Shown piece by piece: positions 34,821 to 59,122 of a stretch of 64,000 nt of DNA (positions are counted from its first letter, which is position 1; each line of letters opens with the position of its first letter). The DNA is from Pseudomonas leptonychotis (lineage in GTDB: Bacteria; Pseudomonadota; Gammaproteobacteria; Pseudomonadales; Pseudomonadaceae). Location: contig NZ_RFLV01000004.1 in assembly GCF_004920405.1 (NCBI RefSeq), positions 223,933 through 287,932 of the forward strand. Direction: 5' to 3'. Under the pieces are notes generated by a model, which was not told where the DNA came from, searched no databases, and worked only from the letters and a program-made list of their open reading frames with translations. Made by a program: the position numbers and the translations under genes.

Positions 34821-34830
34821 GCTGCGGCCC

Positions 34831-38344: not shown

Positions 38345-38411
38345 GGTGGAACCTCCAGTTCGAAATGGGCGGGCAGGAGTGCGCGGCGGTTTCCCCACGA
38401 GTGGGGCGCGT

Positions 38412-39140: not shown

Positions 39141-40340
39141 ATGAGTTTATCGAGCGATATTTCTAGTTTGTTTAAGCAGTTCGGTGGCCGGCCGGACCAA
39201 TACCAAGAAATTAGCAAGGCAGATACCCAGCATGCGTCTCTTGAACGCTGGCCAAGTATTGCCCGGGCGGAAAACTCCTCGCGTGCGATTGCTGAGGAAA
39301 AAGCGCCTGAACTGTTTTCATCGCGTGGCTCCGTACCGCTGGCTGAAGCAGTTGCTGCGCCTGTTATCGCAGCGTCTGAGCCGCCTGTTGCAGTCGCGGT
39401 AGAGCCTGTCAAAGCGGCACTGCCAACTGCTCGTTCGGGTGAAAGCTTGCAAAGCCTTCTCGCGAAACTGGCCGAGGAGGGGCGTAACAATGCTGCTGTC
39501 GATGACGTGGTCGCGCCGTTACAGATGAGAGCTCGACCGCAGCTGTCTCAGATTAAAATCATCGCGGTGGTTTCGGCTAAAGGTGGTGTTGGCAAAAGCA
39601 CCATGGCTGCCAACCTGGCGGCTGCTCTGCATAATGAAGGGCGCCCTGTACTGGCCGTTGATCTTGATCCGCAAAATGCTCTGCACCACCATTTTGAGGT
39701 GGCTGCTGGGCAGGAGTGTGACGCTGTAAGTGAGGGTATTGCTCATCCAGATCAAGACTGGAAGGCAATCGGCATCTCAAGCAGTACTGGGGTGTTGGTG
39801 TTGCCTCACGGGGGTGTGGACGAAGATCAGCGGCGTGCATTCGAGTTGCAGCTGGCCAATGATCCGCAATGGTTGGCGCATAAGTTGAGTGACTTGCAGC
39901 TGGTGGAGGGAGCCATTGTCGTGATCGACACGCCGCCAGGCCCCTCGTTGTATTTGCAGCAAGCCTTGGCCGTGGCCAATATCGCGTTGGTGGTCAGCTT
40001 GTCCGATGCGGCTTCCTATACAGCGCTGCCGCTGATTGAAGGTTTAATCAAAACCTATGCCGCTAAGCGTCATGACTTTATAGGCCCTGCTTACCTGATT
40101 AATCAGTTCGACAGCTCACTGCAGCTGAGTAAAGACATTACCCAGATCATGTTGGCTCAATTAGGTAAACAGGTTATTGGGGTGGTGCACCGTGATCAGT
40201 CGATTTCTGAAGCGCTGGCGTACAACCGCAATGTCATGGAGTACAGCCCCAATGGGCGCGGTTGTTTTGATGTAATGAACTGCGCCAAAACCTTGTTGGG
40301 TCGATTGGCCGCTGATACACGAATCGAGCAGCCTGCATGA
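39141..40340 (+). CDS. wssA: WssA/BcsQ-like ATPase with N-terminal BcsR-type segment
   Basis: The 399-residue protein has a ParA/MinD ATPase domain from about residue 133 with the deviant Walker A VVSAKGGVGKST. It is thought to localise or assemble the cellulose machinery at the membrane. The first ~25 residues (DISSLFKQFGGRPDQYQEI) resemble BcsR/BcsP, which in enterobacteria is a separate small subunit, and are joined to the ATPase by an Ala/Pro/Glu-rich linker. The gene is first in the operon and its stop overlaps bcsA (ATGA). The ribosome site is weak. Confidence 0.85.
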   Translation: MSLSSDISSLFKQFGGRPDQYQEISKADTQHASLERWPSIARAENSSRAIAEEKAPELFSSRGSVPLAEAVAAPVIAASEPPVAVAVEPVKAALPTARSGESLQSLLAKLAEEGRNNAAVDDVVAPLQMRARPQLSQIKIIAVVSAKGGVGKSTMAANLAAALHNEGRPVLAVDLDPQNALHHHFEVAAGQECDAVSEGIAHPDQDWKAIGISSSTGVLVLPHGGVDEDQRRAFELQLANDPQWLAHKLSDLQLVEGAIVVIDTPPGPSLYLQQALAVANIALVVSLSDAASYTALPLIEGLIKTYAAKRHDFIGPAYLINQFDSSLQLSKDITQIMLAQLGKQVIGVVHRDQSISEALAYNRNVMEYSPNGRGCFDVMNCAKTLLGRLAADTRIEQPA

Positions 40341-42520: not shown

Positions 42521-44787
42521 GTCAGAAGCGTAATGGAATGCAATTTCTCTGGCTCGCGCTGTCAATCCCGTTGCTGATGTCATCGGCTTGGGCTGAGGAG
42601 CCTGCCGACGTAGCCGAAGAGGACGCGTCAGTACTCGAGGACGCTATAGCCGAGTTTGTGCCCACCTACAGCGCCACGCTCAAGCAGCTAGGTGCCAATT
42701 ACACCATGCACTTGCGTGGCATTGAGGGGAGCGACAGCGTCAGCTTCGACGTGCGTGCCGACCAGGTTGTGACCAAGGCGCGGGTTAATCTGGAATACAG
42801 CTACTCGCCGTCGCTGCTCAGCGATCTGTCGCAGATCAACGTCATGGTTAACGATCAGGTGGCGGCTAGCTTACCTGTACCGGCAGAAACAGCAGGCTCG
42901 CTGCAGCAGCAGGTCATCGATATTCCGCCGCATTTGGTGACCGAGTTTAACCGCCTGACCCTGCAGCTTATTGGTCATTACACCATGATGTGTGAAGACC
43001 CCCAGCACTCCAGCCTGTGGGCCAAGGTCAGCAACACCAGTACGTTGGAGCTGGAAACCACGCCGATCGTGCTGCCAGACGACCTGAGCAGACTACCACT
43101 GCCCTTTTTTGATGGGCGAGACTCGCGGGCGCTGGAGCTGCCTTTCGTGTTTGCCAGCACACCGGACAATCTGGCTTTGGAGGCCGCTGGCGCCGTTTCA
43201 TCCTGGTTTGGTGCGATGGCCAGCTACCGTGGCGCACATTTCCCTGTGGCCCTTGGCCAATTGCCAGAGAAGGGTAATGCCATTGTTCTCATGGTGGGGG
43301 CCGCAACGGTTGCTGGAGTCGAGGGCATAGAAGGCGCTCGCCCCAGCCTGACGCTGGTTGCTAACCCTAACGACCCTTATGGCAAGTTGCTGGTGATTGC
43401 CGGGCGTGATGGTGAGCAACTCAAGCAAGCGGCACTTGCACTGGTTAGCGGCAGTCATGTCCTGTCAGGGGCGGCGGCGCGCATCGATCGGATAGATAGT
43501 CTGCAAAGCCGCAAACCTTATGACGCGCCGAACTGGTTGCCGAGCGACCGGCCAGTGCAGTTGGGTGAGCTTATTGAAGCCAAGCGGCTGAACGTGTCGG
43601 GTTATAACCCGGGTACCATCAACCTGCCGATGCGCCTGCCTCCGGATCTATTCAACTGGCGCGAAAAAGGTGTGCCGTTACACCTTAAATACCGCTACAC
43701 CCCACAGCCGGTCTCGACTAACTCGTCACTGCTTATCAGTGTCGGCGGTAAGTTCATCAAATCCCTGCCTCTGCCATCCCAGGAAAGCCTGAAGGATGAT
43801 GAGTCACTGATGGCCAAGCTGCAGCAGGATGACAGCTTGCTACGCGAGGCGGAGTTGCTGCTGCCGCTGAACAGCTTGCCATTGCAGTCTGCTCTACAGC
43901 TGCGCTTTATGTACGACTACATCAAGCAGGGTGAATGCCGCGACATCATCATCGACAACATGCGCGGCACCATCGAGCCAGATTCCACCTTGGATTTAAG
44001 TGGCTATGAGCACTTCATTGCCATGCCTAACCTCGGGGTGTTCCAGAGCAGTGGTTTCCCCTTTACGCGCATGGCAGACCTGGCTGAAACGGCAATTGTG
44101 ATGCCGGCAGGTGCGGGGGCTGAGGAGTTTTCTTTCTATTTGGATGTGCTTGGCCGCTTCGGCGACTCCACCGGTTTGCCGGCGACGGCGGTGACCGTTA
44201 CCCAAGGCGATGACGATACACAGCTGAAAGACAGGGACTTGCTGATCTTGGCCGCCGCCGGCAACCAGCCGCTGCTGCAACGTTGGGCTGATCTGCTGCC
44301 GGCGAGCCTGAACGGTGAAGCGACCTTCGAACTGTCTGATTTAGTGCACCGTGTACGCTACTGGACCGGCTCAGATACCCGTGCCAATTTGCGCCAGGCG
44401 CGCAGCAGTCTGGCTGTCGGGACGGGCGGTGCGGGTGCTTACGTGGCGGGGTTTGAGTCGCCATTGAGCAGTGAGCGCAGCGTGGTTGTGATTGCCGCTG
44501 CCAGCCCTGAGAAGTTGATCGATGTCAGCACGGCGCTTCGAGGGGGGGAGGATTACGAGGACTCGCTTCAGGGCAGCCTGGCAGTGGTTAATGGCGGGCG
44601 GATAAATAATTTGGTGGCTGAGCAGCAATACTACGTAGGTGAGCTGGGCTTTTTCCGTTACCTGCAATGGCTGCTGGCGCATAACCTCGCCTGGATGCTG
44701 CTGTTCACGCTCCTGGCGGTCGCTCTGACCAGTGTGCTGTTCTACTTCATGCTGCGGGCTCGCGCCCGTGCGAGGTTGAACGATTGA
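42517..44787 (+). CDS. bcsB: Cellulose synthase periplasmic subunit BcsB (WssC)
   Basis: The 756-residue protein has a signal peptide ending near SSAWA, a large periplasmic part with alternating carbohydrate-binding and flavodoxin-like domains, and a C-terminal membrane anchor at about 725-750. The anchor contacts BcsA and is needed for catalysis. Motifs LPLPFFDGRDSRALELPFVF and MYDYIKQGECRD are typical. The start overlaps bcsA. Confidence 0.94.
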   Translation: MSQKRNGMQFLWLALSIPLLMSSAWAEEPADVAEEDASVLEDAIAEFVPTYSATLKQLGANYTMHLRGIEGSDSVSFDVRADQVVTKARVNLEYSYSPSLLSDLSQINVMVNDQVAASLPVPAETAGSLQQQVIDIPPHLVTEFNRLTLQLIGHYTMMCEDPQHSSLWAKVSNTSTLELETTPIVLPDDLSRLPLPFFDGRDSRALELPFVFASTPDNLALEAAGAVSSWFGAMASYRGAHFPVALGQLPEKGNAIVLMVGAATVAGVEGIEGARPSLTLVANPNDPYGKLLVIAGRDGEQLKQAALALVSGSHVLSGAAARIDRIDSLQSRKPYDAPNWLPSDRPVQLGELIEAKRLNVSGYNPGTINLPMRLPPDLFNWREKGVPLHLKYRYTPQPVSTNSSLLISVGGKFIKSLPLPSQESLKDDESLMAKLQQDDSLLREAELLLPLNSLPLQSALQLRFMYDYIKQGECRDIIIDNMRGTIEPDSTLDLSGYEHFIAMPNLGVFQSSGFPFTRMADLAETAIVMPAGAGAEEFSFYLDVLGRFGDSTGLPATAVTVTQGDDDTQLKDRDLLILAAAGNQPLLQRWADLLPASLNGEATFELSDLVHRVRYWTGSDTRANLRQARSSLAVGTGGAGAYVAGFESPLSSERSVVVIAAASPEKLIDVSTALRGGEDYEDSLQGSLAVVNGGRINNLVAEQQYYVGELGFFRYLQWLLAHNLAWMLLFTLLAVALTSVLFYFMLRARARARLND

Positions 44788-45977
44788 ACTGGCGCATGCC
44801 CCGATACCTGAGCGCGTCTGCCATTGCTCTGCTGACCTTATTTGCCAGTGGCGTGAGTCATGCGGCGTGTCAGGTCGAGTGGCCGCACTGGCAGCGTTTT
44901 GCCGAGCGTTGGGTGCAAGCGGATGGCCGTGTTCTGGAATCCAGTATGGAGAAGAACCACAGCACGTCTGAAGGTCAGTCCTACGCCCTGTTCTTCGCGT
45001 TGGTTGCCAACGATCAGGCGCGTTTTGACAAAATCTGGAGTTGGAGCCGCGAAAACCTTGCGGGTAACGATCTGCAGAATATCCTGCCGGCCTGGCTGTG
45101 GGGGCAGGGCAAAGATGGCAATTGGCAGGTGCAGGATGCCAACTCGGCATCAGATGCTGACCTGTGGTTCGCCTATGCCCTACTTGAGGCCGCAAGGCTG
45201 TGGCAAAAGCCTGAGTACGAGACTGATGCGCGGCACCTCTTGGCTCAAATCAAGCAACATGAAGTGGCTGAGTTGCCAGGCTTGGGTGCTGTGTTGTTAC
45301 CCGGGACGGTCGGGTTTGTGCATCCTGATCATCTCTGGCGCTTGAACCCCAGCTATATGCCCATTCCGCTTCTGCGTCGTCTGGCGCAGTTCGAGCCGCA
45401 AGGGCCGTGGCAAGCGATTGCCGAGAGCACGGCGCAGTTGATCGCGCATGCGGGGCCTCGCGGGTTTGCTGCCGACTGGGTCGGTTATCGTGGTGTTTCG
45501 GCCAGTAACGGGCTGTTCGTTAGCGATCCGTTCAAGGGCGACATTGGCAGTTACGACGCTATTCGTGTCTACCTTTGGGCTGGGATCACGGCCAGCGCAG
45601 ACCCGCTGGCTCAGCCCATTCTCGATAGCCTTGGAGGTATGGCCAGTGCCACGGCTTCTACCGGTGTACCCCCTGAGAAGGTGCAAGTTGCCCAAGGCAC
45701 GACTGAAGGGCATGGCCCTTTCGGCTTCTCTGCAGCGTTGATTCCTTACTTTCAAGCGCGCAGCCAGCCCTGGCTGGCTGAGCTACAACACAAACGCGCA
45801 GTCGGCGGACTCGAGTTGGCGCTCAAGGGCGTTCAAACGCAGAGCCTGCCGCCGATTTATTACGACTATATGCTTAGCCTCTTCGGTCTCGGTTGGGCGC
45901 AAAAGCGCTACCTATTCGAGGTGGACGGTCGGGTGAAACTGTTTTGGGAGTCTGCATGTTCCGCCACACAGCACTGA
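44784..45977 (+). CDS. bcsZ: Periplasmic endo-1,4-glucanase BcsZ (WssD), GH8
   Basis: The 397-residue glycosyl hydrolase family 8 enzyme trims nascent cellulose. TTG 44784 overlaps the bcsB stop and has GAGG at 44772, so it is preferred over ATG 44796, which has no ribosome site. Both starts retain the signal peptide ending near SHA. Catalytic features are STSEGQSYALFFAL with the acid Glu and ADLWFAYALLEAA. Length agrees with the family. It overlaps bcsC by 22 bases. Confidence 0.93.
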   Translation: MNWRMPRYLSASAIALLTLFASGVSHAACQVEWPHWQRFAERWVQADGRVLESSMEKNHSTSEGQSYALFFALVANDQARFDKIWSWSRENLAGNDLQNILPAWLWGQGKDGNWQVQDANSASDADLWFAYALLEAARLWQKPEYETDARHLLAQIKQHEVAELPGLGAVLLPGTVGFVHPDHLWRLNPSYMPIPLLRRLAQFEPQGPWQAIAESTAQLIAHAGPRGFAADWVGYRGVSASNGLFVSDPFKGDIGSYDAIRVYLWAGITASADPLAQPILDSLGGMASATASTGVPPEKVQVAQGTTEGHGPFGFSAALIPYFQARSQPWLAELQHKRAVGGLELALKGVQTQSLPPIYYDYMLSLFGLGWAQKRYLFEVDGRVKLFWESACSATQH

Positions 45978-48900
45978 CCTTAGGTCTATGGGCCGCCGTT
46001 ATTCCGGGCATTTGTCTGGCTAAAGCCAGCGATGCAGAGACGCTGTTGATTGAGCAGGGTTTCTTCTGGCAGGCCGAGGACAAGCCCAAGCGCGCCGCCG
46101 AGTCATGGGAAAAAGTGCTGCTGCTGGATGCCAGCCAGCCGGATGCCCTGTATGGCTTGGGGATTATCGCCGTAGAGGGTGCACAGCTGCCCCGTGCTCA
46201 AGAATACTTGAAGCGCTTGCAGGCCCTTGAGCCGTTGCCGCGACAGGCGTTGCAACTGGAGCAGGATATTCGGCTCGTCGCCCCTGCTAACGCGCAATTG
46301 TTAGAGCAGGCGCGGTTGCTGGTGGATAACGGTGAGCGCGAGAAGGCCGTTGCCGTCTATCGTCAGGCATTGGCCGGTAAACCTGCGCAAGGGCTGATAG
46401 GGCGCGAGTTTTATAACAACCTGGCGTTTACCGAGGGCCACTGGAGTGAGGCGCGCAGCGGTTTTGAGCGGCTTATGCGTGAGCGTCCAGATGATGCCTA
46501 TGTCGCCCTGTTTTTTGCCAAACACTTGGCGCGGCGCAGTGATACGCGCGCCGAAGGTATTCGCGCGTTGGCCGAATTGGCTAAACGTGAAGACATCGGC
46601 GGTGATGCCGATGAAACCTGGCGCCTGGCCCTGACCTGGATGGGCGCTCCGAACAAGGCCCAAGCCCCGCTGTTCGAGACCTTTATCAAACGCCACCCAG
46701 ACGACACGGAAATCCGTGATTTGCTGGCTAAAGGACGGGCCAAGCCTGAAGCGGCTGCTGCCGTTGCGTGGCAGCAGGACCCTGGCCTGGCCCGCGGCTT
46801 GAAAGCGCTGGAAGCGGGTGACCAGGCCACTGCCGAGCGTGAGTTTACTGCCCGTTTAAAAACCCACCCCAACGACGCTGATGCATTGGGCGGTTTGGGT
46901 GTTTTGCGCCAACAACAGAACAAGTTGGACGACGCCGAGGTGCTGCTCACCCGTGCCACTCGGCAGAAGGGCGGTAAGTCTTGGCAAGGCGCGCTCAATG
47001 ATGTGCGTTATTGGTCACTGTTAAAGCGAGCGGCCGATAACCGTGCCAAGGGCGATGCTAAGCAGGCGCGCAGTCAGCTGGACCAAGCGATTCGGTTGAA
47101 GCCTAAAGATCTCGAGGGGCAGCTTGCCCTGGCCGACTTGCAGGCCAGCGAAGGTCAATATGCACCCGCAGAGGCGGGTTATAAGCGCTTGTTGAAACAG
47201 TTTCCCGATAACCAGCAAGCCCGGCGTGGGCTGATTGCCGTACTCGGTCAAACGGGTAAGAACGATGAGGCCCTGCGTTTGATTGAGAGCCTGCCCAAGA
47301 ACGAGCAGGGGAAAATTGAAGGGTTGGGGCGTATCCGCGCCGAGCAAGCCATGCAGCGTGCCAAGCTGGCCGAGCAGCGGGGTGATCGTGAGGGCATGCG
47401 TGCGGCCTTGGAAGACGCCCTGCGCAGTGATCCGAATGACGCGTGGGCACGATTTGCCTTGGCGCGGGTGTATGTCTCCATGGGCGCGGTCAATGAGGCG
47501 CGTAGCCTGGTTGATGGCCTGCTGGTGTCACAACCGAATAACCCAGATGCGCTCTACACCAGCGCCTTACTCTCAGTTCAGTTAGACGATTTGCCCAAAG
47601 CGCAGGCTTCGCTCGCGCTGATTCCGCGCAGCGCCCGCAATGCGGATATCAACCGCTTGGTGCGTGACGTCGATTTCAACCTGCAAATGCAGCAAATCCA
47701 GGCGCTTTCGGCCAGCGGTCGGCGCCAAGAAGCGCGTGTCTTCCTCAATCGTATTGAGCCGCTGGCCGAAGGGCAGCCGGGACGCCAGGAGAGTATCGCT
47801 TCGGCCTATGCCGAGGCCGGTGATCCTCAGCGTGCGATCAGCATAATGCGTGACCTACTGGCTCGCAGCCCACGCCAAGACCCTGGCCTGACGCTGCGTT
47901 ATGCCGGTGTGTTGTTACAAGCTGATCAGGATGTGGAAGCCAGTTCGATTTTGCGCAACATGCAGGGTCAGCTGCTTGATGTTGAGCAGCGCAAGCAATA
48001 CGACGATGTCTTGTTCCTTTACCGCGTTCGTCAGGCTGAGCAGTTGCGTGAGCGCGGTGATTTAGTCACGGCTTACGATACGCTGGCACCGGCCTTGGCT
48101 GAGCGACCACAAAGCAGCCTGGCCGTATCGGCATTGGCGCGCATGTATGCAGCCAGTGGCGAGCCCGGCAAAGCCTTGGAGTTGTATAAGCCACTGGTCA
48201 AGCGCGAGCCAGAAAATGCTCAGTTGTGGATTGGCGCAGCCGACATGGCCGCTCAGGTGCATGAGCGTGATTATGCCGAGGATGCTTTGGAACGTGCCCT
48301 GGTGCTGGCGCCTGCTGACCCGGACGTACTCACCACCGCGGCACGCATCTATCGCTTCCAAGGTCGTACGGGTAAAGCTGCCGAGCTGTTGAAAAAGGTT
48401 GTAGCGCAGGAAAAACGTCAGGAAACGGCTGCCTTTGTTGCCTCTACGCCGGCCCCTGAGCAGTCCAGTAACCCCTTTGCTAAGTCCACAAAGAATCAAC
48501 CTAGCCAACTGGCTACGGCAATTCCGCCCGCGGTTCAGAGTTTGCCGTCTGGCCAAGCTGGGCTGTCTAGCCCGTCGCCGTTTGCGCCTGCATCTGCTGC
48601 AGTGGCCGTTGATCCGCTGCTGGCGGCGCCGACTTATGCGACGGCCGATCCGTTGCTCAATACGCGTCCTGATCCGGTGGCAGGCTATGGCGTGGCAGTG
48701 GCGCCAGCCAGTCAAGACGCTAATCCATTTGCCGTAGAGCAGGCCGGCGTTGACCCCCGTGCGGGGATGAGCCCAGCAGAGCGCGCACTCGATGATGTGT
48801 TGCAACAGCGCAGTGGTTTCGTCGCTCATGGGTTGGGTGTACGTGGTAATGACGGTGAGTCCGGTTTGAGCAAGTTGACAGCGTATGAGGCGCCGTCTGA

Positions 48901-49921
48901 GGTGAATATTCCTATCGGGGATAACCGCCTAGCGCTAAGAGTGACGCCCGTGTATCTCGATGCAGACAGCGCCTCAGGAGAGGCGGCCGACCGCTTTGGT
49001 GGTGGGCCTGCTGCAGCTGGGGATGATCCCGGCTCACAGACAGCTGCAGGCGTTGGTCTGGCGCTGGCGTTCGAAAATCCTGCCGAGGGCTTCAAGGCTG
49101 ACATCGGCACGACACCGCAGGGCTTTCTTTACAGCACTGTGGTCGGCGGTGTGAGCCTGGACCGTGGATTTTCCTCAACGGAACATTTACGTTGGGGCGC
49201 GAGCCTGTCACGGCGTCCGGTGACCGATAGCCTGCTGTCCTTCGCGGGTGCTGAAGATGATCGTACCGGGCAGAAATGGGGTGGGGTCACCGCCAATGGT
49301 GGGCGGGCCGAGTTGAGCTTTGATAACCGCAAGGTGGGTGCCTATGCCTACGGCGCGTTGAGCCACTTGGAGGGGAACCATGTCGAGTCCAATAACAGCG
49401 CTGAGCTGGGTGGCGGCGCGTATTGGTACTTACTCAATAACGAAGACAACCTGCTGACGACCGGCGTCAGTATGACCGCCATGAGTTTTCAAGAGAACTT
49501 GGGCTACTACACCTATGGCCATGGCGGCTACTTCAGCCCGAAAACCTTCCTTGCTTTGGGTGTGCCAGTAACGTGGGCTCAGAGGTTCGATAAGGTCACC
49601 TACCAGATCAAAGGCTCGGTGGGGGTGCAATACATTGACCAGGCCGACGCGGACTATTTCCCAGGCGATGCGGCACTCCAGGCTGAGGCTGGCGATGCGG
49701 TTTACGAAGGCAGCAGTGACCTCGGTTTTGCTTACAGCCTCTATGGCGCGGCTGAGTTTGAAATGGCATCGAATTTCTTCATCGGTAGTTATATGGGGCT
49801 GGACAACGCCCAGGATTACAGTCAGTGGTACCGCGGTTTTTATCTGCGTTACATGTTCAAAGGTACGACCCAGCCGCTTGCGCTTCCCGTCAGCCCTTAT
49901 CGTTCCCCCTATTTGAAATAA
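45956..49921 (+). CDS. bcsC: Cellulose export outer-membrane protein BcsC (WssE)
   Basis: The 1321-residue protein has a signal peptide ending near CLA, a long array of TPR repeats (about 30-820) reaching across the periplasm, a Pro/Ala/Ser-rich linker (~830-960) and a C-terminal 16-strand beta-barrel (about 980-1320) ending in LK. ATG 45956 follows GGGAG and overlaps bcsZ. The barrel exports cellulose and the TPR part binds periplasmic partners. Length matches pseudomonad homologues. Confidence 0.93.
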   Translation: MFRHTALTLGLWAAVIPGICLAKASDAETLLIEQGFFWQAEDKPKRAAESWEKVLLLDASQPDALYGLGIIAVEGAQLPRAQEYLKRLQALEPLPRQALQLEQDIRLVAPANAQLLEQARLLVDNGEREKAVAVYRQALAGKPAQGLIGREFYNNLAFTEGHWSEARSGFERLMRERPDDAYVALFFAKHLARRSDTRAEGIRALAELAKREDIGGDADETWRLALTWMGAPNKAQAPLFETFIKRHPDDTEIRDLLAKGRAKPEAAAAVAWQQDPGLARGLKALEAGDQATAEREFTARLKTHPNDADALGGLGVLRQQQNKLDDAEVLLTRATRQKGGKSWQGALNDVRYWSLLKRAADNRAKGDAKQARSQLDQAIRLKPKDLEGQLALADLQASEGQYAPAEAGYKRLLKQFPDNQQARRGLIAVLGQTGKNDEALRLIESLPKNEQGKIEGLGRIRAEQAMQRAKLAEQRGDREGMRAALEDALRSDPNDAWARFALARVYVSMGAVNEARSLVDGLLVSQPNNPDALYTSALLSVQLDDLPKAQASLALIPRSARNADINRLVRDVDFNLQMQQIQALSASGRRQEARVFLNRIEPLAEGQPGRQESIASAYAEAGDPQRAISIMRDLLARSPRQDPGLTLRYAGVLLQADQDVEASSILRNMQGQLLDVEQRKQYDDVLFLYRVRQAEQLRERGDLVTAYDTLAPALAERPQSSLAVSALARMYAASGEPGKALELYKPLVKREPENAQLWIGAADMAAQVHERDYAEDALERALVLAPADPDVLTTAARIYRFQGRTGKAAELLKKVVAQEKRQETAAFVASTPAPEQSSNPFAKSTKNQPSQLATAIPPAVQSLPSGQAGLSSPSPFAPASAAVAVDPLLAAPTYATADPLLNTRPDPVAGYGVAVAPASQDANPFAVEQAGVDPRAGMSPAERALDDVLQQRSGFVAHGLGVRGNDGESGLSKLTAYEAPSEVNIPIGDNRLALRVTPVYLDADSASGEAADRFGGGPAAAGDDPGSQTAAGVGLALAFENPAEGFKADIGTTPQGFLYSTVVGGVSLDRGFSSTEHLRWGASLSRRPVTDSLLSFAGAEDDRTGQKWGGVTANGGRAELSFDNRKVGAYAYGALSHLEGNHVESNNSAELGGGAYWYLLNNEDNLLTTGVSMTAMSFQENLGYYTYGHGGYFSPKTFLALGVPVTWAQRFDKVTYQIKGSVGVQYIDQADADYFPGDAALQAEAGDAVYEGSSDLGFAYSLYGAAEFEMASNFFIGSYMGLDNAQDYSQWYRGFYLRYMFKGTTQPLALPVSPYRSPYLK

Positions 49922-49941
49922 TTTAGTCAGGAGTAGTACCC

Positions 49942-50601
49942 ATGCCGTCTTCCGCCCTCGCTGGTTTGACCCTTCTTGTTCTGGGTGAGAGCCACATGAG
50001 CTTGCAGAACCACCTGACTGAGCCGTTGAATGCGGCCCTGACTCAGAAAGGTGCCATCGTCCACTCTATCGGTGCCTGTGGTGCCAGTGCGGGCGATTGG
50101 CTGATCACCAAGAAGGTCGATTGCGGCGCTGAGCTCAAGGGCACAGGCAAACTGCTGATCAAGGGGCGTGAAGCGACCACCACGCCGATCAAGGATTTGA
50201 TCGCGAAGAACAAGCCGGATGTGGTGGTGCTGGTCATCGGCGACACCATGGCGTCCTATGACAAGCCCGCATTCCCCAAGGCCTGGGCCTGGCAGAGTGT
50301 GACTAACCTGACCAAGGCGATCAGCGCCACGGGCACCAAGTGCGTCTGGGTTGGCCCGGCCTGGGGTAAGGAAGGCGGCATGTACAAGAAGAACGATGCG
50401 CGCACCCAGCTGATGTCCAAGTTCCTCGCCGCCAACGTGGCGCCTTGCAGCTATATCGACTCGCTGAGCCTGTCCAAGCCTGGCCAGTGGGTGACCACCG
50501 ATGGTCAGCATTTCACCGTTGCCGGTTACAAGGCGTGGGGTGGTGCGATTGCTGAGGCCATGAGCAAGCTGCCGGCGGACAAGCTCAAGGGTGGCAAATA
50601 A
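49942..50601 (+). CDS. wssF: WssF, SGNH-like cellulose acetylation protein
   Basis: The 219-residue product has GESHMS near residue 16 in place of a GDS motif and DGQHFTVAGYKAWG near the C-terminus, so it is an SGNH-hydrolase-type fold. There is no clear signal peptide although N-terminal residues are hydrophobic. It is the first of four acetylation genes, 20 bases after bcsC and overlapping wssG by one base. In P. fluorescens WssF is needed for cellulose acetylation, but its exact step is unsettled. Confidence 0.85.
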   Translation: MPSSALAGLTLLVLGESHMSLQNHLTEPLNAALTQKGAIVHSIGACGASAGDWLITKKVDCGAELKGTGKLLIKGREATTTPIKDLIAKNKPDVVVLVIGDTMASYDKPAFPKAWAWQSVTNLTKAISATGTKCVWVGPAWGKEGGMYKKNDARTQLMSKFLAANVAPCSYIDSLSLSKPGQWVTTDGQHFTVAGYKAWGGAIAEAMSKLPADKLKGGK

Positions 50602-51275
50602 TGAAAGCAGCTGTGCATGCACTGACCGGCCTGTTGAGCCTGACTGGCCTGGCCGTTGCCCAGGCGGCCGATATTCCTTTGTACCCAACGGGCCCCAGTG
50701 AAGACTCTGCGTTCCTGCGCTTCGTCAATGCCAGCGAAAGCCCTTTGCAGCTGACGGCTGCCGGTTCCGGGGCCAGCTTGCGCCTGGAAGGCGAACAGCG
50801 CGTCTCGGACTTTCTCACCGTGCCTGCGGATAAATCAGTACAGGGCTCACTGAGCTTGGGCGAACAACAGCATGCGCTGGATGTGAGCGTGGCGCCGGGC
50901 GAGTTTGCCAGTGTGGTGGCGATTGCCCAGGCTGATCAGCCATTACAGGTACTGACCGTGCGTGAGCAGCCCGATGACTTCAATGCCTTGAAAGCCTCGC
51001 TGGCGTTCTACAGCCTGGATGCGCAATGCGTAGATGCCGGCCTGCAAGTGGCTGGCCGTAGTGTGGATATCTTCAAGGCAGTCGCCACCGGCAGCTTAGA
51101 GCGTCGCTCGATCAACCCGCTTAACCTGAGCGTGCAGCTGCGCTGCGCCGGCGCGGCTGTCGGTGAGCCTCTGGCCCTGGGCGATCTGGCGGCTGGGCAG
51201 CGCTATACCCTGTTTCTAGTACCGTCGGCACAAGGCCCACGCCTGTTCCAGGCCCTCGATAACCTGGCGAACTGA
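50601..51275 (+). CDS. wssG: WssG, AlgF-like periplasmic acetylation protein
   Basis: The 224-residue protein has a signal peptide ending near AQA and a body (DIPLYPTGPSEDSAFLRFVN) clearly like AlgF, the periplasmic adaptor of alginate O-acetylation. It presumably passes acetyl groups from the WssH membrane protein to WssI. Start overlaps the wssF stop. Confidence 0.88.
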   Translation: MKAAVHALTGLLSLTGLAVAQAADIPLYPTGPSEDSAFLRFVNASESPLQLTAAGSGASLRLEGEQRVSDFLTVPADKSVQGSLSLGEQQHALDVSVAPGEFASVVAIAQADQPLQVLTVREQPDDFNALKASLAFYSLDAQCVDAGLQVAGRSVDIFKAVATGSLERRSINPLNLSVQLRCAGAAVGEPLALGDLAAGQRYTLFLVPSAQGPRLFQALDNLAN

Positions 51276-51285
51276 CGTATAGAAC

Positions 51286-52701
51286 ATGGTCTTCACCTCG
51301 CTCGAGTTCCTGACGCTCTTTCTGCCTCTGGTTCTGTTGATTTATGTGCTGGCGCGCCCACAGTGGCGCAACGGCGTATTGCTGGTCGGCAGCTGGGTGT
51401 TCTTCGGCTGGCTCAGCCCGATGTTCATGCTGCTGCATACCGTGCTGACGGTGATTACCTGGGTGGGTGGCCTGCTGATCGACCGTGCCCCACTTGGCTC
51501 GAAGAGCCGTGTGCGTTGGTTGGCCGGCATGATTGTGCTCAACGTCCTGGTTCTGTGCTGGTACAAGTACGCCAACATACTCGCTGCGACCCTCAATGAG
51601 GTGTTGATGTCTCAGGGGGCAATGCCGCTGGAGTGGCAGCGTGTGGCACTGCCGGCGGGGCTGTCGTTTATCGTCTTGCAGGCTATTTCCTACTTGGTCG
51701 ATGTGCATCGTCGCACCGTCAAGGTCGAGCGCAGCTTTATCGACTACGCCACCTATCTGCTGATGTTTGGTCAGTCCATCGCCGGGCCGATCATTCGTTA
51801 CAGCTGGGTCAGTGAAGAGCTTTCCAATCGAGGCCTGAGCTGGCGTAACTTCAGTATGGGTGCGCGGCGTTTCATGATCGGCATGAGCATGAAGGTGCTG
51901 GTGGCCGACAGCCTGTCGCCCTTGGTCGATGTGGCCTTTGCGCTGCCAGAGCCGAGCTTTGTCGATGCCTGGATTGGTTGCCTGGCGTATTCGCTGCAGC
52001 TGTTCTTCGACTTCGCCGGCTACAGCGCCATGGCCATCGGTATTGGCCTGATGTTGGGGTTCCATTTTCCGGAAAACTTCAACCGGCCGTACCTGGCGCG
52101 CAGCATTCAAGATTTCTGGCGGCGCTGGCACTTGTCGTTGTCCAGCTGGATACGTGACTACCTGTACATTCCCTTTGGCGGCAATCGTGGCAGCCAGTGG
52201 ATGATCTACCGCAATCTGTTCCTGACCATGGCCATTGCCGGCTTGTGGCACGGTGGTGACAGCTGGAACTTCCTGCTCTGGGGCGCGGCCCACGGCGTGG
52301 CCTTGTGTGTGGCGCGGCTCTGGACCGGCGTCGGCCGATTTGGCATACCCCGGGTGATGTCGCACGTTGTGACCCTTCTCTTTGTTGCATTGGCCTGGAC
52401 CTTGTTCCGTGCGCCGGACTTTGCCAGCGCATTGAACATGTACGCCGGCCAGTTCGGTTTGCATGCCTTTGCCTTGGGTGATGCCTTGGCGGCGACCGTG
52501 CGCCCGACCCACGCGATAGCCGCTGCCTTGGGTGTGTTCTGCGTGATCGCACCGATCTATCAGCAGCGCTGCGAGGCGCGGTTTGGCCAGAATGCACTGT
52601 TTTGTCTGTTGGGGGCGTCATGGCCGGTGCTGGGCTTCTTGTTGTCGTTCGCCTTGATCGCCAGCCGTGAAACGGTGCCCTTTCTGTACTTCCAGTTTTA
52701 A
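51286..52701 (+). CDS. wssH: WssH, MBOAT membrane acyltransferase (AlgI-like)
   Basis: The 471-residue multi-spanning protein starts with MVFTSLEFLTLFLPLV like AlgI. It has RDYLYIPFGGNRGS and the catalytic WHGGDSWNFLLWGAAHG, whose two His residues define the MBOAT family. It moves acetyl groups from the cytoplasm to the periplasm for cellulose acetylation. It is 10 bases after wssG. Confidence 0.93.
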   Translation: MVFTSLEFLTLFLPLVLLIYVLARPQWRNGVLLVGSWVFFGWLSPMFMLLHTVLTVITWVGGLLIDRAPLGSKSRVRWLAGMIVLNVLVLCWYKYANILAATLNEVLMSQGAMPLEWQRVALPAGLSFIVLQAISYLVDVHRRTVKVERSFIDYATYLLMFGQSIAGPIIRYSWVSEELSNRGLSWRNFSMGARRFMIGMSMKVLVADSLSPLVDVAFALPEPSFVDAWIGCLAYSLQLFFDFAGYSAMAIGIGLMLGFHFPENFNRPYLARSIQDFWRRWHLSLSSWIRDYLYIPFGGNRGSQWMIYRNLFLTMAIAGLWHGGDSWNFLLWGAAHGVALCVARLWTGVGRFGIPRVMSHVVTLLFVALAWTLFRAPDFASALNMYAGQFGLHAFALGDALAATVRPTHAIAAALGVFCVIAPIYQQRCEARFGQNALFCLLGASWPVLGFLLSFALIASRETVPFLYFQF

Positions 52702-52712
52702 GGCCTGATGCC

Positions 52713-53858
52713 ATGACTGACATCCAACACTCATCTGCCGAAGGCCTGACCGCTAAGCTAAGCCCGTTAGCCGGCGTGGTCATGCTGGTGTTCTTGGTCG
52801 CAGGTTTGGCGTCTGTGCTGTGGGCCATGTTTGTCAGTGACAAAGTGGCGTTGAAGCCCACGCAAACACCCACGTGGGAGCAGATTTCTGAGGGCGCGGT
52901 AACCCACCGCATTGCCAAAGAACTGGCCAATGTGTCCATTGCCGAACGGGCCGCTGACATAGAGCGGGCGGCCAGCTGGTTGCTGATTGGCGACACCGGC
53001 AGCCGCGTGCGTCAGGGCTGTAATGGATGGTTGTTTATCGCCGATGAACTGAAAATTCATCCGCAGGCCGATGCGAACTCGGCGGCGAAGGCGCAGAAAG
53101 TCATTGAGCTGCGTCAGCAATTGGCTGCCCAGGGCATCGAGTTGTTAGTGGCGTTGGTGCCGGACAAGAGCCGCATCGTGGCCGATCAGCGTTGTGGGAT
53201 AGCCCGTTCGTCACGCCTGGATGAGCGTGCCCAGCAATGGTTGACGGTGGTACAAGCCGCCGGTGTGGCAAGCCTGGATTTGGCGCCACAGCTGCAGCCA
53301 TTGGGCGATGCAGCGTTTCTGCGTACAGACACACACTGGAGCGAGAAGGGCGCCGACATTGCGGCCCAGGCTATTGCTGCGCGGGTTGCCACGCTGGGTG
53401 TTGAGGCGGTGCCGGCCACGCAGTTCAGTGCAACGCTCGGCGAGCCGGCGCGGCGTCCCGGTGACCTGGTGCGGTTGGCGGGGCTGGACTGGCTGCCGCT
53501 GGCTTTGCAACCGCAACCCGAGACCGTTAGCGTCACGCAATTCCAGGAAGTTGTGGATGAAACCGGCGATGCGTTACTGAGCGAAGATGATCTGTTTGGC
53601 GACAGTGAGCTGCCCAATATTGCGGTGATCGGTACATCGTTCTCGCGTAACTCGAATTTCATCGCCTTTCTTGAGCGCGCCTTAAATGCTCGCGTGGGCA
53701 ACTTTGCCCTGGATGGCGGCGAGTTCTCGGGTGCCGCCAAAGCCTACTTTAAAAGTAGCGCTTTCAAACAGACGCCACCTCGACTGATCGTCTGGGAAAT
53801 TCCAGAACGGGATCTGCAAAGCCCCTACGTGGACGATATTGTCCTTAACAAGCACTGA
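52713..53858 (+). CDS. wssI: WssI, AlgJ/AlgX-like cellulose O-acetyltransferase
   Basis: The 381-residue protein has one N-terminal membrane helix (about 20-42) and a periplasmic SGNH-like domain. DTHWSEKG (Asp-His) and GTSFSRNS (Ser) mark the catalytic triad of the AlgJ/AlgX group. It probably transfers the acetyl group to cellulose. It ends the operon. No wssJ gene follows. Confidence 0.9.
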   Translation: MTDIQHSSAEGLTAKLSPLAGVVMLVFLVAGLASVLWAMFVSDKVALKPTQTPTWEQISEGAVTHRIAKELANVSIAERAADIERAASWLLIGDTGSRVRQGCNGWLFIADELKIHPQADANSAAKAQKVIELRQQLAAQGIELLVALVPDKSRIVADQRCGIARSSRLDERAQQWLTVVQAAGVASLDLAPQLQPLGDAAFLRTDTHWSEKGADIAAQAIAARVATLGVEAVPATQFSATLGEPARRPGDLVRLAGLDWLPLALQPQPETVSVTQFQEVVDETGDALLSEDDLFGDSELPNIAVIGTSFSRNSNFIAFLERALNARVGNFALDGGEFSGAAKAYFKSSAFKQTPPRLIVWEIPERDLQSPYVDDIVLNKH

Positions 53859-53881: not shown

Positions 53882-53980
53882 CCTCACAGTAGCTGCGTTG
53901 AGCCCACCTCGGGCTAGCTGTGAGCTGTGCGCCCTTGCGGTGCGTAGTTTGGGCGGCGTGCTGCATCGCAGGGCGTTGAA

Positions 53981-55057
53981 TCAGAGTTGTTTTTCCGCCG
54001 CCATTTGCATGTAGCTGCCGTCGAAGCGCAGCAGAATGTTATCGGCATTGCCCAGGCTGCGTTCACCACTGAAAGAGATGCCGAGTTTCTCCAGGCCTCT
54101 GCCATCGTTGCCGAGTAGCTTCTGTTGGTCAGCGAACTGGGCGACTCGCTGCATCAGCTCGGGCATCTTGTTGGCGCGGGCAAAGGCCAGGGCATAACGC
54201 GGCGAGTAGAACGAGCGCAGGGTGTCGAGTTGCTGGCTGAAATCTTCCGATGTGGTACCGGCCGCGCTGGCCATCTTGGCCCGTGCCGCACGCCCAGCAT
54301 CGGTGGGCATGCCCATCAGCCGCTGGGTTTCGAACCAGGCGCCGGTCAGCGCCTTGCCCAGCTCCGGGTGGGCGGCCAGAACCTTGCTGTTAACCACTGT
54401 GAGGTCGACGATCTCGCCGGGAATCAGGTTGGAGCTGAACACCTGGCTGACCTGGGCCTGCTGTTTGATCTTGGCCAGGATAGGATTCCAGGTGATTACC
54501 GCATCGCCCTGGCCGGCGAGGAAGGCCTCGGCGATTTGCGTATCGGAAACGTGCTGGATGGTCACATCCTCAGGCTTGAGTAGGGCCCATTCCAGGGCGC
54601 GGCTGAGTAGATAGTGCGACACCGAGTTCTCTACCAGTAGCACGGTTTTGCCCTTGAGGTCCTTCAAGGTCAGGCCTGTGCCGCGCAGCAGGATGGCATC
54701 GGCGCCGTTGGAGAAGTCGCCGATGATCAGTGCGGTGGAATCTACGCCAACAGCGGCCGGGATGGTCAGCGCATCCATATTGGTCATCGAGCAGGCATCG
54801 AACTCACCGGCGCTGTAGCGCTCGATGGAGCCGACGTAATCCGGCACCTCGCTGACTTCGACGCGAATGCCGTATTTGTCAGCCCACTTCTTCACGATGC
54901 CTTCATCGGCGGCATAGCCCCAGGGCATCCAGCCGGCGAAGATCGACCAGCACAACTTGAAGGTTTTCGGCTCGGCGCTAGCGCTAGCGGGGGCAGCCAG
55001 TATCAGGGCGAACAGGCCGATACAGATACGGCGAATGAGCACAGCAGAAAGATGCAT
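53981..55057 (-). CDS. Orphan guanidine-type substrate-binding protein
   Basis: The 358-residue exported protein is a paralogue of the binding protein at 37277-38344. It shares CWSIFAGWMPWGY, CSMTNMDALTIPAA, STALIIGDFSNG, a TWNPILA segment and the C-terminal DGSYMQMAAE. A signal peptide ends near ASA. It stands alone, with no ATPase or permease gene beside it, and has its own guanidine-I riboswitch. It may work with the transporter 16 kb away, giving a second affinity or specificity. Confidence 0.88.
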   Translation of the reverse strand: MHLSAVLIRRICIGLFALILAAPASASAEPKTFKLCWSIFAGWMPWGYAADEGIVKKWADKYGIRVEVSEVPDYVGSIERYSAGEFDACSMTNMDALTIPAAVGVDSTALIIGDFSNGADAILLRGTGLTLKDLKGKTVLLVENSVSHYLLSRALEWALLKPEDVTIQHVSDTQIAEAFLAGQGDAVITWNPILAKIKQQAQVSQVFSSNLIPGEIVDLTVVNSKVLAAHPELGKALTGAWFETQRLMGMPTDAGRAARAKMASAAGTTSEDFSQQLDTLRSFYSPRYALAFARANKMPELMQRVAQFADQQKLLGNDGRGLEKLGISFSGERSLGNADNILLRFDGSYMQMAAEKQL

Positions 55058-55113
55058 ATAAAACCTCGGGGTCAGGAAAAGGCACAGGAAGGCGTGCAGC
55101 CGCGCTGCATCGT

Positions 55114-55223
55114 TCTCCCGGGCTTTTATCCCGCCGTGTAACCCCTGTTCCGCATTGCTGCGTGAGGTCGCCAGCTCTCGGACCAGTCGTTCGCGATCTA
55201 CTAGTCGCGAACCGGAACCCTAG
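55114..55223 (-). promoter_or_regulatory. Second guanidine-I (ykkC) riboswitch
   Basis: On the minus strand the blocks are CTAGGGTTCCG, a P2 hairpin of perfect 8-base arms GTTCGCGA/TCGCGAAC, GGTCCGAGAG, a third hairpin, then ACACGGCGGGATAAAAGCCC and GGGAGA. P2 has a different sequence from the first riboswitch but the same pairing, which is covariation support. It lies about 57 bases before the orphan binding-protein start. Confidence 0.95.
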
Positions 55224-55478
55224 CCAGCCATTGCAAATTTTCACGCTGCAAACCGCTAGTAAGCCGAGCAGCGACACGCATTCCATTCGTCAGCAACGCA
55301 TAAGCGAAGACCGTGCCATAACGTCCGGTTTGCCACTTCAGCAAATTTACTGGTTGAACCCGACAATAGCGCTCATATTGATGTTTCAGACGACTCACCT
55401 CGATGGGTGAGTGGTCGCAGAAGTAGTAACGGCGGGCAATCATGTCCGTCGCTGTAACAATAAGAAGGTAGGTTTACG

Positions 55479-56311: not shown

Positions 56312-57238
56312 CTACGAGCCCGACGCGTCCTCTAGCTGACGGCCGAAGAGTTGATCTTCGGCCAGTATCTCTTCCCGCATAACCTGCGCCGCCGGTGACA
56401 GACTATGCCCGGCGCGGCTGATTAGGGCGTAGGCCGATTGCTCGGTCAACGCGCCTGCTTCCAGCGGCAATTGGGCTAGGCGGCCGGCGTGGATATCCTC
56501 AGCCACCACATCCCAAGGTGCCATGCTCAGCACATCGCTATCGGCCACCAGGGCTTTGAGCACCATAAAGTTGTCGCATTGAATACTCAGTGGCTGCTCG
56601 CGGTTACTGAGTGCGCGCAAGTTCTGCTCCACTGTCTGCGGGAGCTGGGTGCCGGCCAGGGGATAATCAAGCAGGTCATGCATGCGCAGCGCCGGTTGCT
56701 GCAGTAGCGGATGGTTGGGGCGGCAGAACAGCACGCCGCTGTGGCGTTGCAGTGGCTCGATGCACAATAAAGGGTCGGCGAGCAGCTCACGGCTGTCGGC
56801 GACAAACAGTTCCACGGCGTCATCCAGTAGGCTGCTACGCAGCTCCTGCCAATTGCCAATCTGCAGATTGATGCGCACTCGTGGGTAGCGCTGCGCCATA
56901 CGTCCTAGGGCTCGTGGCACCAGGCGCGCGGCCGGGTAGGGGCCGGCTCCCAGACGCAGTTCACCGGTTTGCAGATTGCCCAGCTGGCTGACGGCGTTCT
57001 TTAGTGCGCGGCTACCCGCCAGCAGGCGTTGCGCATGTTCCAATACCAGTTGGCCATGGGTGGTCAGGCTGATACCACGGCTGTGCCGGTCGACCAGGTT
57101 ACAGTCGAGGCTGGCCTCCAACGCTTGAATGCTGCGGCTCAGTGCGGGTTGACTAAGGTGTATGGCCTCGGCGGCACGCGCGAAATGGCCATGCTCGGCA
57201 AGGGCGATGAAGTGACGAAGTTGGCGTAGATCGTTCAT
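56312..57238 (-). CDS. LysR-family regulator of the alkylsulfatase gene
   Basis: The 308-residue protein has the LysR helix-turn-helix (FARAAEAIHLSQPALSRSIQALEASL) and a periplasmic-binding-like effector domain from about 90. It is divergent from the alkylsulfatase gene with 96 bases between starts, and a dyad lies in that gap. By analogy with SdsB1 it likely activates the sulfatase in response to an alkyl sulfate. Confidence 0.9.
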   Translation of the reverse strand: MNDLRQLRHFIALAEHGHFARAAEAIHLSQPALSRSIQALEASLDCNLVDRHSRGISLTTHGQLVLEHAQRLLAGSRALKNAVSQLGNLQTGELRLGAGPYPAARLVPRALGRMAQRYPRVRINLQIGNWQELRSSLLDDAVELFVADSRELLADPLLCIEPLQRHSGVLFCRPNHPLLQQPALRMHDLLDYPLAGTQLPQTVEQNLRALSNREQPLSIQCDNFMVLKALVADSDVLSMAPWDVVAEDIHAGRLAQLPLEAGALTEQSAYALISRAGHSLSPAAQVMREEILAEDQLFGRQLEDASGS

Positions 57239-57334: not shown

Positions 57335-59122
57335 ATGTTTCCACTCACTCGAATTGCTGCGGTGCTGCTGAGCCTGACGTTACCCTTGGCGAGCCACGCG
57401 GCCCTGCCGGATGAACAGATCTCGGCCTCGATCAACCCGGAACTGGCCGAACACACCAAGCATTTTGCGCAAAAGGTCTACAAGATTGCCGACAACGTCT
57501 ACTCCGCCGTTGGTTGGCAGCTGGGTAACGTAGCGATGATTGAGGCGCCGGAAGGGCTGATCATCATCGATACCGGCGAGTCGGTCAGTGAATCGCGCAA
57601 GATCATGGCTGAATTCCGCAAAATCACCGACAAACCGGTTAAGGCGGTGGTCTACACCCACTTTCATCCGGACCATATCAATGGCGTGAAGGCCTTCGTC
57701 ACGGAGGAGCAGGTGCGCAGTGGCGAGGTGCAGATCATTGCCCATGAAACCTTGTTGGCTAATGTGGTGGCCCAAGGTGCGCTGGTTGGCCCGATACTCT
57801 CGGTGCGTTCCGGCTACAGCTTCGGGGCTGCGTTACCGGCCACTGACCATGAACAGATGAACGCGGGTATCGGTCCGTTGGCCAAGGCTGAGGCCTCGAC
57901 GTTTATTGCGCCGACTCTGACCTTCAAAGACAAGCTCGACACCCGCATCGCCGGTCTGGACCTGCAATTTTTACATGTGCCTAGCGAAGCGCCGGACGAG
58001 ATCATCGTTTACCTAGCGGATAATCGTGTGCTGATTAGCGCCGAAGTGGAGCAGGGGCCGACCCTGCCGAACATCCATACGCTGCGCGGCACCAAGTTCC
58101 GCGACCCGGTGGTGTGGGTCGAGAGTCTGGACAAACTGCGCGCCTACCGGGCCGAACATATGGTGCCGTTGCATGGGCGTCCCGTCAGTGGCGAGCAAAA
58201 CGTTGAGGAAGTGCTGCGCATGACCCGCGACGGTATTGCTTATATCCATGATCAAACCGTGCGCTGGATGAATAAGGGTCTGACCCCGGATGAGTTGGTC
58301 GAGAAGGTCAAACTTCCGCCACATCTAGCGGGTTACACGCCTTATTTGCGTGAGTATTACGGCACCGTGAAACACAGCGTGCGGCAGATCTACAACGGCT
58401 ACCTGGGCTGGTTTCAAGGTGACCCGGTGGATCTGGACCCACTGCCACCGCAGGATAAGGCGCAGCGTCTGGTTGCCCTGATGGGCGGGCGTGAGAAGGT
58501 ATTGTTGGCTGCCGGTGATGCGTACCTCGAAGGCGATTATCAGTGGGCCGCCGAATTGTCAGGCTATGCCATCCGTCTTGATCACGATGACCCGCTGGCC
58601 CGCGATATCAAGGCCCGCAGCTTCCGCAAACTCGGTTACGCGAGCATGAATATCAACTGGCGCAACTGGTACTTGATGAGTGCTATGGAGCTGGAAGGCA
58701 AGCTGGACGGTGATGAGGTGCAGCAGATGGCACTGAGCATGCGCAGCGCATTTCTCTCGGCCGACATGCTGAAAACCTTTCCGGCGCGAGTCTTCCTGCA
58801 AAACTGGATTACTCGGGTCGACCCAGACAAGGCCAATGATGTCGAACTGACCCTGGGCTTCAGCTTCCCGGATATTGGCGAGGAGTGGGCGTTAGAAGTG
58901 CGCCGCGGTGTGGTGCAACTGCATCAGGGCATTCCCGCGGGCACCACGCTCAAGCTGACCCTCGACAAGACATACTTGGATACCGTGATGAGCGGCGAGA
59001 ACGGTTTACTCAAGGGCGCGCTGTTGGGTGATGTGAAGGTCGATGGCAGCTTGCTGGAGATCAAATCGTTCCTCGGCTGCTTCGATTTCAGCGAAGCGCC
59101 GATTGCTCTGACGCTGCGCTGA
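57335..59122 (+). CDS. Alkyl/aryl-sulfatase, metallo-beta-lactamase type (SdsA-like)
   Basis: The 595-residue exported enzyme hydrolyses primary or secondary alkyl sulfates. A signal peptide ends near SHA. The zinc motif HFHPDH is at residues 109-114. The region LVPLHGRPVSGEQNV and an alkylsulfatase dimerisation domain (~330-460) follow. The C-terminal ~120 residues are an SCP2-like hydrophobic-substrate domain. It is somewhat shorter than P. aeruginosa SdsA1 (658), so the exact substrate may differ. Confidence 0.9.
   Translation: MFPLTRIAAVLLSLTLPLASHAALPDEQISASINPELAEHTKHFAQKVYKIADNVYSAVGWQLGNVAMIEAPEGLIIIDTGESVSESRKIMAEFRKITDKPVKAVVYTHFHPDHINGVKAFVTEEQVRSGEVQIIAHETLLANVVAQGALVGPILSVRSGYSFGAALPATDHEQMNAGIGPLAKAEASTFIAPTLTFKDKLDTRIAGLDLQFLHVPSEAPDEIIVYLADNRVLISAEVEQGPTLPNIHTLRGTKFRDPVVWVESLDKLRAYRAEHMVPLHGRPVSGEQNVEEVLRMTRDGIAYIHDQTVRWMNKGLTPDELVEKVKLPPHLAGYTPYLREYYGTVKHSVRQIYNGYLGWFQGDPVDLDPLPPQDKAQRLVALMGGREKVLLAAGDAYLEGDYQWAAELSGYAIRLDHDDPLARDIKARSFRKLGYASMNINWRNWYLMSAMELEGKLDGDEVQQMALSMRSAFLSADMLKTFPARVFLQNWITRVDPDKANDVELTLGFSFPDIGEEWALEVRRGVVQLHQGIPAGTTLKLTLDKTYLDTVMSGENGLLKGALLGDVKVDGSLLEIKSFLGCFDFSEAPIALTLR

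Follow-up and report, generated by a model that had tools for sequence, protein, structure and literature searches.

The locus described here raises the question why a gene for a guanidine-type substrate-binding protein, equipped with a riboswitch of its own, should stand apart from any transporter that its product could serve. The gene, here called SBP2 (53981-55057, reverse strand), lies in a stretch of 64,000 nucleotides from Pseudomonas leptonychotis, which we refer to as the window. Its stop codon is about 15.6 kb away from the start codon of SBP1, the binding protein gene of a guanidine operon. The answer that we favor, with a probability of roughly 0.7, is that SBP2 acts as a second periplasmic receptor, diverged from the first, for the one guanidine importer of the genome, encoded in its own cassette and separated from the transporter genes by a stretch with cellulose genes.

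The SBP2 reading frame is intact and open over 358 codons. Its product matches the profile of urea-carboxylase-associated binding proteins (TIGR03427) with 429 bits, at a cut-off of 333.9, and is 52% identical over 351 columns to SBP1 (37277-38344, reverse strand), which scores 575 bits. The sequence-only reading was thus right to call it a paralogue of the operon's binding protein, and right that no permease or ATPase gene is found beside it; in this genome the transporter genes are 15-17 kb away. All genes of the operon are on the reverse strand, in the order Guanidine-I aptamer 1, SBP1, ABC permease (36375-37190, PF00528), ABC ATPase (35569-36378, PF00005), UAAP1 (34831-35559), UAAP2 (34185-34865), Guanidine-II aptamer and urea/guanidine carboxylase (30301-33960, 1219 aa by the longest frame, TIGR02712 with 1869 bits). 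UAAP1 and UAAP2 are DUF1989 proteins by Pfam and TIGR profile matches, and by position would be the subunits of a carboxyguanidine deiminase. The Guanidine-II aptamer (33962-34008, reverse strand, RF01068, 45.7 bits), detected by cmscan just upstream of the carboxylase gene, was absent from the earlier reading. An allophanate hydrolase is encoded away from the operon (C1:955993, 836 bits). Guanidine carboxylase operons that start behind a Guanidine-I aptamer and have a Guanidine-II aptamer ahead of the carboxylase gene have been described (PMC12186494; for V. boliviensis PMC12508155), and in the accessible parts of these accounts the order of switches and genes is the same as in the window. 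The window differs from them in its second, displaced receptor cassette, and in having no mgdH/mgdL relative in the operon.

Both Guanidine-I aptamers of the window match the whole model of the riboswitch (RF00442, ykkC) in cmscan, above the gathering score of 63 bits. Aptamer 1 (38411-38512, reverse strand) scores 88.4 bits, and aptamer 2, in front of SBP2 (55113-55234, reverse strand), scores 83.7 bits over model positions 1-107. The presence of aptamer 2 had been recognized before, but its end had been set at 55223, which is 11 bases short of the true end. The P2 stem of aptamer 2 differs, yet in a compensated manner. In a set of 23 aptamers, of which 22 precede SBP2 genes and one precedes SBP1, 7 of the 25 predicted pairs show a two-sided change with the pair kept in at least one sequence. 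The model score and the covariation bear out the claim of an independent riboswitch with a different, compensated P2, and support the view that this second riboswitch is probably both independent and maintained. Compared with the known Guanidine-I riboswitch, the setting differs in that two copies precede two receptor genes of one transporter, and each copy is found behind a sigma-54-type sequence.

Two candidate switching mechanisms were considered, and neither gained support. An intrinsic terminator is not convincing behind either aptamer: behind aptamer 2 there is a single, weak terminator-like match (55097-55082), and the total of 2 for the region compares with a shuffle mean of 1.4. Translational sequestration is not favored by a model of ribosome-site access, in which enforcing P3 raised access in 3 of 38 SBP2 leaders (35 of 38 were negative), 4 of 49 SBP1 leaders and 0 of 13 permease leaders. 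Neither the terminator scan nor the access model revealed an expression platform for aptamer 2.

The genome of P. leptonychotis (4.39 Mb in 29 contigs, rated 100% complete) leaves little choice of partners for SBP2. It encodes two TIGR03427 proteins, and the whole-genome search did not find a third. It likewise holds two Guanidine-I aptamers and no third copy in a genome-wide search with this model. A second close permease was not found genome-wide either; the next best match covers part of the length at 30% identity. The search for another complete transporter subject to the same control, which had been proposed along with the sequence-only reading, thus came out in favor of that reading. Given two receptors, a Guanidine-I aptamer for each and a single close permease, the natural reading is that two receptors serve one transporter. 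A second genomic Guanidine-II aptamer (C2:570062) precedes the gene for a small membrane protein with a resemblance, judged by eye, to SMR-type exporters.

The sequence-only reading had regarded two receptors with two riboswitches as an unusual layout. This is not borne out by the relatives. In a genus sample of 398 genomes, a Guanidine-I match is present in 215, and a copy of SBP2 with at least 63% identity in 29. SBP2 rows rank first in this search and other rows among the matches listed do not exceed 54%, the SBP1 rows being incomplete among these matches. The nearest SBP2 relatives are from Pseudomonas. SBP2 adjoins SBP1 or the permease in 27 of the 29 SBP2-bearing genomes (loci L035-L064; L055 has a 146-codon ORF between SBP2 and the next cassette). 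The two exceptions are the genome of the window and G323, in which the rest of the operon is lost, a carboxylase match of 155 residues is left, and no Guanidine-I aptamer was found. The window genome is therefore the only one of the 29 in which SBP2 and the transporter are both present and apart. A second set of 52 named loci from genome contigs, which overlaps with the genus sample in its records, contains 34 with SBP2 (L087-L120). SBP2 adjoins SBP1 or the permease in all 34, among them L101, L105 and L112, which end soon after SBP2 and its neighbor (L112 also has the 146-codon ORF), and L120, which begins within SBP2. Riboswitches of the relatives were mostly found by a text pattern, with cmscan applied to 18 loci and to six. 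Two receptors with two riboswitches are thus usual in part of the genus Pseudomonas, and the odd feature of the window genome is not the receptor pair, but the separation of SBP2 from the transporter. For Ectopseudomonas guguanensis, a figure legend already depicts two such binding protein genes with Guanidine-I riboswitches (PMC13296017).

Binding proteins of the SBP2 fold can also feed receptors. SBP2 could accordingly be the partner of a sensor or chemotaxis receptor and deliver nothing to the importer. Its distance from the transporter in the window genome would be in keeping with such a role, but in the relatives SBP2 is directly beside SBP1 or the permease, no chemoreceptor gene was noticed next to it, and we consider a pure sensor role highly improbable. 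The cassette that follows SBP2 is mostly that of SBP1, and it is that of the permease in 8 of 27 genus sample loci and 12 of 34 named loci. The latter arrangement ties SBP2 to this transporter.

Further variation is found among the named loci. A third Guanidine-I aptamer precedes the permease in L097, L102, L104, L106-L111, L114 and L119, and the same loci carry mgdH/mgdL-like genes on the opposite strand, between the ATPase and SBP1. In P. mangrovi (L113), SBP2 has no Guanidine-I aptamer before it and is followed by an SBP1 with an aptamer; a sigma-54-like sequence is seen by eye upstream of this SBP2.

What separates SBP2 from the operon in the window is, as had been noted before, a set of cellulose genes. 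ORFs and a Pfam search on six frames place them at 39141-53858 on the forward strand, comprising a bcsQ-like gene, bcsA, bcsB, bcsZ, bcsC and acetylation genes, where the names bcsB, bcsZ and bcsC are presumed from position. In three relatives (L088, L092, L093), the order is g60345, mbl, lysR, riboswitch 2 with SBP2, riboswitch 1 with SBP1, and there are no cellulose genes in between. The flank beyond SBP2 is kept in the window, with a LysR regulator (56312-57238, reverse strand) and an alkyl-sulfatase-like metallohydrolase (mbl, 57335-59122, forward strand), both assigned by Pfam. The spacer from the SBP2 stop to aptamer 1 measures 176 bases in L088 and about 15 kb in the window genome. Window positions 55257-53928 align to L088 9799-11130, and positions 38682-36000 align to L088 11084-13744, so that the two stretches are neighbors in L088. 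A spacer element of about 53 bases, recognized by local alignment to the relatives, is present at both edges of the additional stretch, behind SBP2 (53922-53974, reverse strand) and upstream of riboswitch 1 (38630-38682, reverse strand), with a score of 44 that none of 1000 shuffles reached. The two copies differ, and a fresh target-site duplication was therefore ruled out. The composition of the stretch shows no clear oddity, with a G+C content of 0.525-0.607 per kb compared to 0.556-0.629 in the surroundings.

The separation is a local event in the window genome. Insertion of the cellulose operon appears to account for it best, and a single such event is the simplest version. Alternatively, the mbl-lysR-SBP2 block may have moved, or the relatives may have lost cellulose genes. 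In L089 and L090, cellulose genes in the same orientation are found beyond mbl, so that the move of a smaller block would also yield the order of the window. However, the flanks of L088, L092 and L093 have no cellulose genes between them, and distant SBP2 loci are contiguous as well, which makes a rearrangement other than insertion unlikely. Relatives of bcsA with at least 74% identity are present in 10 of the 398 genomes. In 5 of these 10, including the window genome, no more than about 10 kb separate bcsA from the guanidine locus, and its position relative to the locus varies; cellulose genes near the locus, at other points, were seen in G153, G193, G377 and G355, and also in L090. In G283, bcsA is on another contig than the guanidine locus.

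An insertion between SBP2 and its transporter could mean that the gene has been cut off and is on the way to loss, still expressed and no longer important. The median dN/dS is 0.099 for the window SBP2 against its relatives (11 pairs), compared to 0.069 among the SBP2s of the relatives (53 pairs); for SBP1 the values are 0.068 for the window genome and 0.058 among relatives. The window SBP2 is under purifying selection, which may be slightly relaxed. Decay would find precedent in the remnant left in G323 after loss of the rest of the operon, and in four sample loci that keep the transporter without SBP2. It is at odds with the open frame, the aptamer above cut-off and the preserved promoter-type sequence, as well as with a dN/dS far below 1, although the latter is a weak test, because the branch partly predates the insertion. 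On balance, a gene drifting towards loss seems improbable. Judged by the low dN/dS, the retained aptamer and the retained acidic ligand residues (see below), SBP2 looks functional. The SBP2 match of L038 (G054) contains one in-frame TAG.

A recent duplication of SBP1 in the window genome was ruled out, since SBP2 belongs to a clade of its own. In a tree of the quick kind, with SH-aLRT values as the sole support measure and SBP1 and SBP2 labels assigned from BLAST scores, the SBP2 sequences form one clade (47 rows, SH-aLRT 100) and the Pseudomonas SBP1 sequences a separate one (53 rows, SH-aLRT 99). SBP2 is not nested in Pseudomonas SBP1, and the long branch between the clades carries a warning of false joining. 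A second SBP1-like protein, whose gene follows that of the carboxylase in a gammaproteobacterial genome from a metagenome (L123), joins SBP2 in the tree by a long branch, and this join may be false.

The structural model of SBP2 (pLDDT 85.6, pTM 0.83) has the two-domain class II periplasmic binding fold of the TauA/SsuA type. TauA and SsuA are its best structural matches in the PDB (6ssy_A with E 5e-18 and TM 0.67/0.79; further matches 3ksx, 3ksj, 2x26), at only about 19% identity. The residues by which TauA binds the amine end of taurine are Glu106, Asp205 and Thr132 (PMC6906117, in the part of the paper accessible to us). With TauA numbers taken as the PDB chain index plus 21, at which the letters of Glu106, Thr132, Trp176 and Asp205 agree, Glu106, Asp205 and Trp176 align to D120, D218 and W190 of SBP2. 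These three residues are invariant in 15 aligned SBP2 and SBP1 proteins. The acids on the amine side of TauA are thus matched in SBP2, but Thr132 is not: it corresponds to a valine in both SBP2 and SBP1, which is again invariant in the 15 proteins. The retained acidic residues together with W190 would suit a cation such as guanidinium. SBP2 may bind guanidine or a close guanidinium compound.

Outside these residues, the two receptors have diverged. At 25 positions, SBP2 (n=47) and Pseudomonas SBP1 (n=53) are fixed differently, with each group at 90% or above, and of 117 columns that hardly vary among 72 SBP1s, 35 are lost in SBP2. The fixed differences suggest a changed affinity or specificity, and together with the lost columns they indicate that the ligand of SBP2 may differ. 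It is possible, though we consider it less likely than not, that SBP2 binds another guanidinium compound, for example methylguanidine, and widens the range of the importer rather than its capacity for guanidine. Among the 25 positions, 119 and 144 are at most two residues from mapped ligand positions, mgdH/mgdL-like genes occur at the same locus in the P. alcaliphila-type layout, and there are precedents for one importer being served by several receptors that differ in range (PMC4206461, as far as accessible). Against this, the acidic ligand residues are identical in SBP1 and SBP2, and the best mgdH match in the window genome reaches 37%. Moreover, four loci with the permease first (L041, L044, L051, L065) lack SBP2 and many SBP2 loci have no mgdHL match, so SBP2 and mgdHL are not tied to each other. 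The Guanidine-I switch of V. boliviensis is reported to bind guanidine with a KD of 44 µM and not to bind methylguanidine up to 1 mM (PMC12508155, accessible part). If the switch of the window behaves alike, an SBP2 for another compound would still need guanidine for its induction. A second receptor for guanidine or a close relative of it remains our preferred reading.

Promoters dependent on sigma-54 carry a GG and a GC element whose spacing is fixed (TGGCACG-N4-TTGC). Sequences of this type are present upstream of both receptor genes in the window, at 55304-55318 for the SBP2 cassette (TGGCACGGTCTTCGC, reverse strand) and at 38569-38583 for the SBP1 operon (TGGCACGATGTTCGC, reverse strand). 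Both have the two elements at the proper spacing, with TCGC instead of TTGC, one letter off the consensus. A pattern written after these two examples (TGGCA[C/T][G/A/T]-N4-T[T/C]GC, no more than 260 bases ahead of the riboswitch core) was then run on 115 distinct leaders, taken from L035-L120 and from the window. It matched 114 of them, at a median distance of 113 bases: 44 of 44 for SBP2, 52 of 53 for SBP1, and 18 of 18 for the third aptamer before the permease. The leaders are related, so that these counts are not independent. A set read later and kept outside this count (L005-L034, partly from the same genomes) gave 29 of 31 distinct leaders, those of L030 and L031 being without a site; L006 yielded no riboswitch by pattern. 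The background is low, with 20 matches in 23000 shuffled upstream regions and 30 sites outside such leaders in 2.63 Mb of strand. On both strands of the window there are three sites, two of which are those of the SBP2 and SBP1 leaders. Among other gammaproteobacteria, 2 of 13 leaders have the sequence. A scan with a sigma-70 pattern gave no site near SBP2 or SBP1.

The sigma-54-type sequence was found in none of 8 Guanidine-I leaders of another operon. Such a further aptamer is present in L067, L068 and L071-L076 (genomes G119, G228, G355, G054, G290, G279, G193 and G165). The operon begins with a binding protein that is of the NMT1 type by Pfam in L068 and L076, with weak similarity (26-28%) in L071-L075, and continues with a protein of the FA_desaturase fold and short-chain dehydrogenases, to which L068 adds a creatininase and L072 an EamA-type protein. 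It may represent an uncharacterised pathway for a guanidino compound.

Sites resembling the NtrC consensus (up to 3 mismatches, rows not made distinct) are present upstream of SBP1 in 62 of 65 rows and upstream of the permease aptamer in 24 of 24. Upstream of SBP2 they occur in 20 of 60 rows, compared to 589 of 3000 random stretches, which makes the signal clear for SBP1 and weak for SBP2. In the window, the site TGCACC-N5-GGCGCA (38636-38652, reverse strand) has one mismatch to the consensus. The published NtrC regulon of Burkholderia cenocepacia lists urea carboxylase and its ABC protein (PMC5491218), and COG3665 genes are among predicted sigma-54 targets (PMC12316311), according to the accessible portions of these papers. 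In the literature searched, which left most subscription papers out of reach, we found no description of a sigma-54 promoter paired with a guanidine riboswitch. The sigma-54-type sequence upstream of the guanidine riboswitch appears to be a new observation.

Taken together, the data suggest how SBP2 may work. Its cassette would combine the gene with a Guanidine-I riboswitch and, ahead of this, a sigma-54-type promoter. The arrangement of the relatives, with this cassette directly upstream of that of SBP1 or the permease, would be the starting point, and in the window genome about 15 kb with the cellulose operon would have come between SBP2 and riboswitch 1. Having its own promoter and switch, SBP2 could keep working at a distance. 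Transcription would be initiated from the sigma-54-type promoters, probably under nitrogen limitation, and guanidine bound to the aptamers would allow expression of the genes, including SBP2. Both receptors would then deliver guanidinium compounds to the permease and ATPase of the SBP1 operon, and the carboxylase pathway would free ammonium. For this uptake mechanism we rely on the sequence and on published work on the operon in other organisms.

Several binding proteins on one ABC importer, as proposed for SBP1 and SBP2, are not without parallel. The Cbc importer is reportedly served by several of them. The DppBCDF importer of P. aeruginosa is fed by DppA1-A5 (PMC4206461). The ligands of these systems are peptides (Dpp) or quaternary ammonium compounds (Cbc), and no riboswitch is mentioned in the accessible account. 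A close parallel is E. guguanensis G3, which likewise has two urea-carboxylase-type binding protein genes with Guanidine-I riboswitches. There they are in one locus, whereas in the window they are split by the cellulose operon, and the accessible part of the report claims neither a ligand nor a promoter for the second binding protein (PMC13296017).

An apparent orphan gene is thus explained by its neighbors in relatives, and nature provides here, in a form that can be tested, two diverged receptors for a single guanidine importer. The parts worth testing are the promoter pattern and the divergence of the receptors. Each receptor gene, together with its nitrogen-type promoter and guanidine switch, resembles a portable cassette. 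More tentatively, and as a whole rather doubtful, one may think of portable two-signal cassettes that survive relocation, with SBP2 retuned to another guanidinium ligand and the importer retuned by the choice of receptor. If the stacking of sigma-54 promoter and riboswitch proves true in experiment, the use of guanidine in these Pseudomonas would be controlled by an AND gate whose inputs are nitrogen hunger, sensed when transcription starts, and the ligand, sensed in the RNA.
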